A stretch of DNA of 50,633 nucleotides from Nitrospirota bacterium (lineage in GTDB: Bacteria > Nitrospirota > Thermodesulfovibrionia > Thermodesulfovibrionales > JdFR-86), in the NCBI GenBank assembly GCA_037386965.1, contig JARRLN010000008.1, positions 1-50,633 on the forward strand. The letters are read 5' to 3'. A program made the translations under genes and the position numbers. This document shows, piece by piece, positions 4,939 through 50,426 of this stretch. Each line of letters begins with the position of its first letter. The stretch's first letter is position 1. A model generated the notes under the pieces. The model was not told the DNA's origin and did no database searches. It saw only the letters and a list, made by a program, of their open reading frames with translations.

Positions 4939-5033
4939 CGGGATGAGGGTGAAAAGGTGCCTTCTCCCGTGGCGTGCCGTCCCGACACACAGGGAACGGT
5001 GTCCCTCCCGTCTCCAGGCGCCGGCTGGCCGCC

Positions 5034-5645
5034 TCAGGTGACGACGACGGAGTCGTCCGAGCCGAACTGGTTCGGCTCGTAGCGGTCGGCGCACCAGTCG
5101 TTCTCCCACCGGGAGCCGTCGATGAGGTAACGGTAGCGGTAGGCGCCGTTGGACGGCAGCTTGACGGTCACCTTGAAAGAGTCCTTGCTGGCCTTCAGGG
5201 GAATGCCTTTCATGTCCCAGTCGTTGAAGTCTCCCACGAGGACCACTTTACGGGCCTTGGGGGCGGCATCCTTGGGCAGGACGAAGGTCACCTGACACTC
5301 CGGCTTGCTCTTCAGGTACTTCTTCTTGGCCGCGTAGTCCGTGGACTTGCACACGTGGGGCGATGCCGGGGCCTCGCGGGAAGGCCCTTTGGCCCGGGCT
5401 TCCTTCGGGGCCGCCTTCTTTGCCTTGGCGGCCGCTGCCGGGGGGGCTTTGGGAGCGGCTTCAGGGGCTCCCGGAGTCGTCTCGGGGGCCTTGGGAGGTG
5501 TCCCGGGGGCTTTGGCAGCAGTTTCCGGGGCTTTCGAAGCCGTCTCGGGGGCTGGGGCCGTGGCCTTCATGGGGTCCCTGGTCGTCTTCGGCGTTTCCTT
5601 CTTTGCCCTTCTGGCGGAACGGGGACGTTTTGCTTCAGCGGACAT
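5034..5645 (-). CDS. CBM48/AMPK-type glycogen-binding domain protein with Ala/Pro/Lys-rich N-terminus
   Basis: A protein of about 203 aa from the ATG at 5645, which is preceded by GAGGTG at 5 nt; an upstream start at 5672 lacks this. Residues 1-100 are a low-complexity Ala/Pro/Lys segment with repeats such as SKAPETAAKAPGT and PKAPETTPGAPEA. Residues 115-203 form an early-set/CBM48 glycogen-binding domain: VTFVLPKDAAPKARKVVLVGDFNDWD, VKLPSNGAYRYRYLIDGSRWENDW. Such domains bind alpha-glucans or serve as interaction modules. The single-domain form with a basic disordered tail is known in Nitrospirota-like genomes as a stand-alone isoamylase-N-like protein. No glycogen enzyme lies nearby, so its ligand is unknown. 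Confidence 0.75.
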   Translation of the reverse strand: MSAEAKRPRSARRAKKETPKTTRDPMKATAPAPETASKAPETAAKAPGTPPKAPETTPGAPEAAPKAPPAAAAKAKKAAPKEARAKGPSREAPASPHVCKSTDYAAKKKYLKSKPECQVTFVLPKDAAPKARKVVLVGDFNDWDMKGIPLKASKDSFKVTVKLPSNGAYRYRYLIDGSRWENDWCADRYEPNQFGSDDSVVVT

Positions 5646-5681
5646 ATGCACACCTCGGGGTTTGAATGTCACTAGATTAGC

Positions 5682-5710
5682 ATTGTATTAAGAAGCAGGG
5701 GCGTTGTCAA
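5682..5710 (-). promoter_or_regulatory. Near-consensus sigma70 promoter of the CBM48 gene
   Basis: A perfect -35 TTGACA (5705-5710), a 17-nt spacer, and -10 TACAAT (5682-5687). Transcription would start near 5675, giving a roughly 30-nt leader with the GAGGTG Shine-Dalgarno site before the ATG at 5645. This is the best vegetative promoter in the window. Confidence 0.82.
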
Positions 5711-5750
5711 CGGAATTGTGACGGGACGCGCCCGGGACCCGATAATAGTC

Positions 5751-5759
5751 TGATATAAT
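5751..5759 (+). promoter_or_regulatory. Extended -10 TGATATAAT upstream of the zinc-ribbon/trp unit
   Basis: A perfect TGN-TATAAT extended -10, 8 nt before the ATG at 5768. It predicts a leader of only about 2 nt. It diverges from the CBM48 promoter, whose -35 lies about 40 nt upstream. Confidence 0.55.
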
Positions 5760-5767
5760 AATTGGAT

Positions 5768-49256: not shown

Positions 49257-50027
49257 TCAGACCCTCAGCCGGTAATGGCCGGGGGAGAGGAAGGTTAGCA
49301 TTCCCCTGTCCCGGAGGACCTGGAGCTGCTGGCGGATCTTGGGGCGGACGTTTTTGTTGGCTGGATGAAGCCTCTTTAGGGAAGCTTCGTACTCATAGAC
49401 CTCCCGCAATGTGAAATCTTCCTTGCCCAGGTCGCGCACGCATTTCAGGACATCCGCCAGCCAGCCCCTTTCATTGGCCTTTTGCTCCGAAAGAAACCTG
49501 AACCGCGCGTAGTCCTTCCGCACGTCACGGGGAGACATCGCGTGCCCGCCATGGATCAGCGGAATCCGGGCGTCCCCGGGCAGAGCGCCCAAAAGGATAT
49601 TGCATCCCTGCCAACCCGCGCGCCGTGCCTTGGGTGAAAGGGGGTTTCGCATCTCGATGCATGAGAGGGTGACGAAATGCCTTGGAACCAGAAGAAGGTT
49701 CTCCACGCATTTTGCATCCCTGCTGTAATGCATGAACAAGAAGTTCGGCGACCTGTCGTGTGCGATCGCCTCGGCCATGGGCGCATAGGCGGCGTCCGCG
49801 ACTTTGCTGCCCAGGGGCCTGCTCTGGCTCTTTAACTGGTACTGCTCCTTGCACCTGTCGCAGACGAAGTCAACGACCCTGGTGTTCTCGCGGGCTGGTA
49901 CCAATCGGTCGGCCCGGCACGAAACGCAGTAGAGGTTCGTTCGCGCCCAGCTTTCGGTTAGGACACGTGCTATCTGGGAACCACTCTTGTAGCCCGCCGC
50001 CTTAGAGGGATCAAAGCAAAGGTCCAT
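49257..50027 (-). CDS. DpnI-family endonuclease homologue (Gln at the catalytic Glu position)
   Basis: A 256-aa homologue of DpnI, the enzyme that cuts adenine-methylated GATC. The start ATG 50027 (MDLCFDPSKAAGYKSGSQIAR) aligns with the DpnI N-terminus; a GTG at 50063 would add 12 residues. With this start, zinc ligands Cys34, Cys37, Cys56, Cys59 and PD-(D/E)XK residues Asp53 and Lys66 fall at the DpnI numbers, but DpnI Glu64 is replaced by Gln (YQLK). The block PLSPKARRAGWQGCNILL and the C-terminal winged helix (FTLREVYEYEASLKRL, KIRQQLQVLRDRGMLTF) are preserved. An XRE gene precedes it. No GATC methylase is seen, as expected for a DpnI-type host. Confidence 0.9.
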   Translation of the reverse strand: MDLCFDPSKAAGYKSGSQIARVLTESWARTNLYCVSCRADRLVPARENTRVVDFVCDRCKEQYQLKSQSRPLGSKVADAAYAPMAEAIAHDRSPNFLFMHYSRDAKCVENLLLVPRHFVTLSCIEMRNPLSPKARRAGWQGCNILLGALPGDARIPLIHGGHAMSPRDVRKDYARFRFLSEQKANERGWLADVLKCVRDLGKEDFTLREVYEYEASLKRLHPANKNVRPKIRQQLQVLRDRGMLTFLSPGHYRLRV

Positions 50028-50101
50028 CTTTTCTGATATACGGGATAAGCCATCTCTTGCCACCCGCCCACTTGAGAAAGGGTTTCGCTTCTTGAGGGGT
50101 T

Positions 50102-50362
50102 TTATGCGTCTTCTTTCCCGTTCCGCCTGACATCATATATTCCCTTGAATATGTCATTGATTCTTACGTCCAGTGCGTCCGCGATGCGGAAAAGGGTCTT
50201 GAGTGACGGGTAGCGCAGGCCCCGCTCTATCTGCCCTATATAGGAGACATGGATGTCCGCCTTCTCCGAGAGCTTTTCCTGCGAGAGATGCTTTTTCTCC
50301 CTGAGCTTTTTGATGTTCTGGCCCAGGGCGAGGCAGCGGTCATCGGGCTTGGCCTGCGGCAT
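50102..50362 (-). CDS. XRE-family regulator upstream of the DpnI-like gene
   Basis: An 86-aa helix-turn-helix protein (LGQNIKKLREKKHLSQEKLSEKADIHVSYIGQIERGLRYPSLKTLFRIADALDVRINDIF). Its size matches the controller (C) proteins of restriction-modification systems. It is followed by the endonuclease gene after 74 nt. Its ATG lies 5 nt from a TATAGT hexamer without a Shine-Dalgarno site; leaderless C genes are known. Two perfect and one near-perfect copy of CTATTTGTAA lie upstream as likely operators. Confidence 0.85.
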   Translation of the reverse strand: MPQAKPDDRCLALGQNIKKLREKKHLSQEKLSEKADIHVSYIGQIERGLRYPSLKTLFRIADALDVRINDIFKGIYDVRRNGKEDA

Positions 50363-50367
50363 GGGGT

Positions 50368-50373
50368 ACTATA
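50368..50373 (-). promoter_or_regulatory. -10 TATAGT of the XRE gene, leaderless type
   Basis: TATAGT, 5 nt (ACCCC), ATG at 50362. The surrounding sequence is AT-rich. Confidence 0.48.
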
Positions 50374-50379
50374 AATTTC

Positions 50380-50426
50380 TTACAAATAGTATTTAAAGAG
50401 ACTATATGTAATAAGGCTATTTGTAA
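50380..50426. promoter_or_regulatory. Operator-like repeats upstream of the XRE gene
   Basis: TTACAAATAG (50380-50389), CTATATGTAA (50402-50411) and CTATTTGTAA (50417-50426). The first and third are perfect inverted copies, the second has one mismatch. They sit just upstream of the -10, where a C-type regulator would bind. Confidence 0.55.

Follow-up and report, generated by a model that had tools for sequence, protein, structure and literature searches.

Probable Replacement of a D12 Adenine Methylase by a QxK-Type DpnI Homologue Behind a Controller-Like Gene in a Nitrospirota Bacterium

Introduction

Among m6A-directed restriction enzymes, DpnI serves as the model, and it is an everyday laboratory reagent. 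R.DpnI from Streptococcus pneumoniae is a type IIM enzyme specific for Gm6ATC (PDB 4esj, 4kyw). The window, i.e., the whole stretch of 50,633 nucleotides of Nitrospirota DNA that was analyzed (contig JARRLN010000008.1), contains a homologue of this enzyme in which glutamine occupies the position of a catalytic glutamate, and an XRE-type gene resembling the controllers of restriction-modification (R-M) systems lies ahead of it. This locus raises two questions, namely, whether such an enzyme can cut, and why a controller gene should stand before an enzyme that can do without a methylase. We consider it probable that the locus encodes a controller-linked, methylation-directed QxK enzyme of the DpnI family, which was installed by replacing a D12 methylase in an R-M cassette.

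The DpnI Homologue

The nuclease gene and its parts are as follows.

49257..50027, minus strand: dpnI homologue, QxK type, 256 aa, with a PD-(D/E)XK catalytic domain and a winged helix
49830..49871, minus strand: catalytic motif D53-X10-Q64-L65-K66, with the Gln codon at 49836-49838
49605..49649, minus strand: methyl-pocket loop, with R127, L130, R136, W139, and G141 corresponding to DpnI R126, L129, R135, W138, and G140
49260..49478, minus strand: C-terminal winged helix, with K230 and R232 corresponding to DpnI K229 and R231

The open reading frame extends over 49257-50063 on the minus strand, and the ATG at 50027 is the dpnI start. The two domains of the DpnI/Dam-replacing family were detected in order, namely, Pfam DpnI (PF06044; E 5.3e-60, 202.6 bits against a gathering threshold of 26.7), followed by DpnI_C (PF17726; E 6.8e-28, 97.1 bits against 23). 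DpnI (4esj/4kyw) was the sole PDB sequence match (E 1.8e-60), and PADLOC classified the protein as a methyl-directed REase (E 1.2e-76). An AlphaFold model that was built with 34 relatives as input had a mean pLDDT of 94.5 and shared the fold of DpnI (Foldseek against 4esj_B, TM 0.86/0.91, rmsd 2.3). The zinc cysteines 34, 37, 56, and 59 were all retained, as were the residues S17, Q18, N48, D78, R126, L129, R135, W138, G140, K229, and R231, by which the catalytic domain and the winged helix of DpnI contact Gm6ATC (PMC4117772). The preliminary description of this DNA had proposed a full-length DpnI homologue, which these results bear out. It had also stated that the numbering coincides with that of DpnI; this is true from the ATG at 50027 until about residue 105, after which the window protein runs one residue ahead.

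In DpnI, metal site 1 is coordinated by Asp53 and Glu64, and the attacking water is contacted by Lys66 (PMC4117772). Alignment with DpnI confirmed the earlier reading that the first and the last of these residues are kept and that Glu64 is replaced by Gln (CAG, 49836-49838, minus strand), which leaves the catalytic set of DpnI incomplete in the window protein.

Four of the 18 GATC sites of the window are located inside dpnI, and the gene deviates in G+C content (59% vs. 65%); these features suggest that dpnI may be a fairly recent import. A phage origin was rejected, as the viral matches cover the winged helix alone and the single match in a phage record is a C-terminal piece. The viral contigs (L164-L168) match only the winged helix of DpnI, residues about 188-256; because of this partial match, the methyl-sensing helix probably forms part of other proteins in these viruses.

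Two Halves of the DpnI Family

When 396 genomes from this phylum were searched with Pfam, a search free of motif-pattern bias, the homologues had Q64 wherever this position was readable. Another 80 loci came from scanning 84,980 species genomes, and a few loci represent the same genomes in both searches. Among 87 loci, position 64 was Q in 43 and E in 44, with no other residue, although the Q share is inflated and gives no frequency because the 80 loci were the top 80 in a ranking by resemblance to the window protein. At every aligned locus, D53, K66, and the four zinc cysteines were invariant, and the family-wide conservation of W138, G140, K229, and R231 was partly selected for, since the scan patterns contained GW.GCNI and KIRQQLQ.

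In an unrooted tree of 83 proteins, E64 and Q64 fell on opposite sides of one branch, with a support of 99/94 when columns 64, 151, and 169 were omitted. The Q side comprised Nitrospirota, Acidobacteriota, Planctomycetota, Chloroflexota, Armatimonadota, Verrucomicrobiota, and many archaeal lineages, whereas the E side comprised DpnI, Bacillota, Bacteroidota, and most Pseudomonadota. The split was mirrored in two more columns: column 151 was acidic in 37/40 Q proteins, and column 169 was Arg in 36/40. A different Glu at the metal site, which would undermine the substitution, was looked for in the alignment; no compensating Glu was found in Q members, position 151 being the sole Q-specific acidic column, and E25 was common to all members in the column-by-column alignment. 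The decay of one gene was therefore rejected as the origin of Q64, given the single family-wide split, and the residue is not an individual oddity. Judged from the alignment and the tree, Q64 is the mark of one ancient half of the sampled DpnI family. This large half, which occurs in bacteria and archaea, appears to be uncharacterized, as the characterized members considered here (DpnI and Neisseria Drg) are of the ExK type, and it could yield enzymes with other metal or temperature behavior.

Broken dpnI copies, with stops, a frameshift, or just an N-terminal piece, were observed in three relatives within the phylum (L010, L011/L016, and L012). Another relative carried a stray C-terminal winged-helix fragment downstream of an intact dpnI copy (L007:2837-2923).

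Q-Type Loci Beside Full-Length Methylases

A full-length N6/N4 methylase adjoined dpnI in 14/40 Q-type loci, whereas the neighboring methylases of E-type dpnI were mostly fragments; a previous survey found directly adjacent N6/N4 methylases to be frameshifted (PMC11037411). Methylase A, which is divergently oriented to the Q-type dpnI, was found in Nitrospirota and relatives (L020, L028-L032, L041, and L071, where it extends to the contig end). Its counts are not independent, with seven of the eight in one small tree cluster, together with an archaeal and a planctomycete locus; few events are therefore likely to lie behind type A. Methylase B (L045, L048, L055, L059, L084, and L106) is DpnA-like, lies on the same strand as the Q-type dpnI, and shares 46-58% identity with the second methylase in a three-gene operon on plasmid pSRQ700 (adenine methylase, second methylase, type II nuclease). 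This operon is the LlaDCHI system, an isoschizomer of DpnII.

If either methylase produces double-stranded Gm6ATC, it may conflict with a neighboring nuclease that cuts this site. Either Gm6ATC in double-stranded DNA is not a product of these methylases, or the requirement or control of some Q-type enzymes is different. On the second option, the Q64 half would be a distinct subfamily that lives beside working methylases, some of them DpnA-like, as a nuclease with altered requirement or control in R-M-like units, even in the order controller, nuclease, methylase; we regard this as unlikely. Somewhat less likely again is the fuller version of this reading, in which the requirement has changed in modification, context, or conditional cutting, and the window copy, which has no full-length methylase partner, is a derived orphan. 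The contrast between Q- and E-type neighborhoods speaks for it, as does the locus L071:4634-6577, where a controller-like XRE gene, a Q-type dpnI, and methylase A follow one another in that order and in one direction, and D151 and R169 could be the marks of such a change. However, all known Gm6ATC contacts are conserved, type A arose in few events, and at another locus (L023) a DpnA-like gene ends prematurely at the start of a Q-type dpnI. A Q-type enzyme directed against Gm6ATC is preferred.

Other gene arrangements were observed at E-type and related loci. In Flavobacterium (L091), an E-type dpnI (5001-5762) is preceded at a distance of 120 bp by a Dam gene that seems uninterrupted and is followed by a DpnA-like piece; this arrangement is a potential self-conflict. 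A DpnD-PcfM domain is fused N-terminally to a DpnA-like methylase that adjoins an E-type dpnI (L073:3463-4497), and eleven further E-type dpnI genes have a stand-alone DpnD-like gene of 56-89 aa next to them. Fusobacterium vincentii harbors a row of a Dam-like methylase, a DpnII-like nuclease, an Mrr-like QxK protein, and methylase A, all assigned by eye on the sequence (L163:2363-5729).

Cleavage by a QxK Site

Nucleases of the Mrr, MspJI, and BisI families have D-X(10-12)-QxK as their active site (PMC12707154, PMC4926085), and the window protein has the spacing D-X10-QxK. An active enzyme is favored because of this precedent. Furthermore, Q64 defines one side of a deep split across which D53 and K66 are invariant, which argues for a maintained function. 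The window protein is probably a cutter of Gm6ATC as judged from its motif and family, and the suggestion that a QxK site might be active gains support from the retention of D53, K66, and the methyl pocket throughout the Q half.

It had alternatively been suggested that the protein binds methyl-GATC and no longer cuts; such a protein could act, for example, in regulation or sequestration. In favor of this reading, DpnI uses Glu64 as a direct metal ligand (PMC4117772), D53 by itself might fail to hold the metal, and the binding-site residues are intact. Nevertheless, a pure binder would have no need of D53 and K66, both invariant in the Q half; position 64 admits only E or Q across the loci; the QxK sites of Mrr-type, MspJI, and BisI enzymes do cut; and dpnI sits on a methylase stump (see below), as expected if cutting and methylation are mutually exclusive. 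The loss of cleavage through Q64 is accordingly improbable, and an active enzyme is the better reading.

Controller Gene and Methylase Stump

The following features were located upstream of dpnI.

50011..50136, minus strand: truncated 5' end of a Dam-class (D12) adenine methylase gene, about 36 codons, from similarity searches
50102..50362, minus strand: xre, an 86-aa helix-turn-helix protein resembling R-M controller (C) proteins (HTH_3, E 3e-18)
50380..50426: three TTACAAATAG-like operator candidates at 50380-50389 (plus), 50402-50411 (minus, one mismatch), and 50417-50426 (minus)
50368..50397, minus strand: promoter-like hexamers overlapping the first repeat, weak and at chance level (1 found, 0.6 expected)

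The best solved relatives of the XRE protein were C.BclI (E 1.6e-9) and C.AhdI (E 1.4e-8), and PADLOC assigned it as a control protein (E 3.8e-17). The 50.6 kb window contained three TTACAAATAG-like sites (at most one mismatch), all of which were no more than 47 bp upstream of xre; 0.38 were expected in the window, and at least three were reached in 2/100 shuffles. The proposed controller-like XRE gene with operator repeats was thus upheld. The truncated D12 methylase gene between xre and dpnI had gone unnoticed.

The stump reading frame, which has the same orientation as xre, opens at 50136 within the last part of that gene and reads MMSGGTGKKTHKTPQEAKPFLKWAGGKRWLIPYIRKDGPLL. It contains KPFLKWAGGK, the N-terminal motif of D12 adenine methylases. 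Its best solved match was M.DpnII (E 0.011), its best plasmid match in tblastn was an annotated DNA adenine methylase (60.6%, E 1e-4), its annotated phage matches were DNA methylases, and in a small set, matches to D12 methylases of the same phylum reached E 1e-8. Strong similarity was confined to about 20 residues, and Pfam detected no family in the 41-residue piece. The similarity ends where dpnI begins (50027), and 4 bp separate the stop codons of dpnI and hisB; the remainder of the methylase is therefore gone. A truncated adenine-methylase gene at the dpnI junction, as in a drg-like Dam-replacing locus, is present in the window. It is very improbable that the XRE gene and the methylase-like frame are chance neighbors of a stand-alone dpnI with no historical or regulatory link to a controller: the similarity is short and without a Pfam family, and a close XRE relative stands beside dpnI at just one other locus among 87 (L071), but the motif follows an ATG that overlaps the xre end on the same strand, the plasmid, phylum, and M.DpnII matches are all methylases, and the XRE protein is of the controller class.

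From the sequence of this junction, it was concluded that dpnI replaced a D12-class methylase inside a controller-bearing cassette and that xre is probably an inheritance from the replaced R-M cassette. The stump between xre and dpnI is the likely explanation for a controller gene without a methylase, ahead of an enzyme that needs none. Similar junctions were found at other loci, including an N-terminal Dam piece that ends 6 bp before dpnI (L057) and C-terminal Dam pieces 14-23 bp before dpnI (L094 and L095), and the truncated DpnA-like gene of L023 belongs with them. The stump supports gene replacement as a recurring route from ordinary R-M cassettes to methyl-directed restriction. No intact ancestral xre-methylase operon was found among 30 D12 loci of the phylum, in which similar D12 genes had varied neighbors, and in a comparison for an empty site at hisB, the downstream genes were different in every relative.

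Methylases and GATC Sites in the Host Genome

Genome-level statements refer to family searches and to 300 kb of sampled sequence. No D12, N6_N4, or N6 methylase exceeded the threshold in the host genome, which is 96.7% complete (best N6_N4 match, E 0.39), and the named controls were detected. A missing partner is possible because of this completeness and because the contig ends (50633) 271 bp beyond xre. GATC was the most depleted 4-base palindrome, with about five-fold depletion: the window contained 18 sites against about 157 expected, and 300 kb elsewhere in the genome contained 171 against 944. Observed/expected ratios were 0.07-0.18 in the window, in the samples of the same genome (L108-L122), and in three genomes of the same family (G032, G101, and G132). 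These three lack dpnI and were equally or more strongly depleted, whereas G360 showed no such depletion; a footprint of dpnI was therefore rejected as the cause. GATC avoidance has already been reported in genomes with DpnI-like enzymes (PMC4687349). The depletion is a lineage trait that is compatible with missing GATC methylation.

Proposed Model and Comparison with Known Systems

The ancestral R-M cassette probably consisted of the xre controller followed by a D12-class adenine methylase. Replacement of the methylase by dpnI would have left its first ~36 codons in place, and the inherited xre and its operator would now stand upstream of dpnI, which we infer to be under XRE control. The enzyme most likely binds fully methylated Gm6ATC through its catalytic domain and winged helix, and D53, Q64, K66, and the carbonyl group of residue 65 would form the metal site at which cleavage takes place. 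Phage or plasmid DNA that enters with Dam methylation would thereby be destroyed, and the host would be spared because it is apparently without GATC adenine methylation. The locus belongs to the apparently uncharacterized QxK half of a known family, and its dam-replacing junction, with a controller gene in front, is unusually easy to read.

The window protein resembles R.DpnI in its full-length fold, zinc cysteines, D53, K66, methyl pocket, and winged-helix contacts. In contrast to R.DpnI, it has Gln for Glu64 as well as D151 and R169, and it lies across the deepest branch of the family; its locus has an upstream controller gene and no annotated adjoining dpnD-like gene. It shares D-X(10-12)-QxK with the PD-QxK nucleases Mrr, MspJI, and BisI, although it belongs to a different family and has the motif alone in common with them. 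The XRE protein is similar to C.BclI and C.AhdI as a small HTH_3 protein of related sequence with repeats before its own start, but the enzyme linked to it is methyl-directed and has no methylase, and the operator role of its repeats is putative. Unlike in classical type II R-M systems, the nuclease has no cognate methylase beside it, only a methylase stump. A close parallel in arrangement is Drg/NmeBII of Neisseria: insertion of drg (dam replacing gene) has left dam truncated in several strains, and in three gonococci a DpnIIB-like gene comes after drg (PMC4269198); this following gene was interrupted in the Neisseria record examined. The window DpnI homologue likewise truncates a dam-type methylase gene, but it does so in another host and within another subfamily, with a controller before the stump and with the 3' end of the methylase gone.
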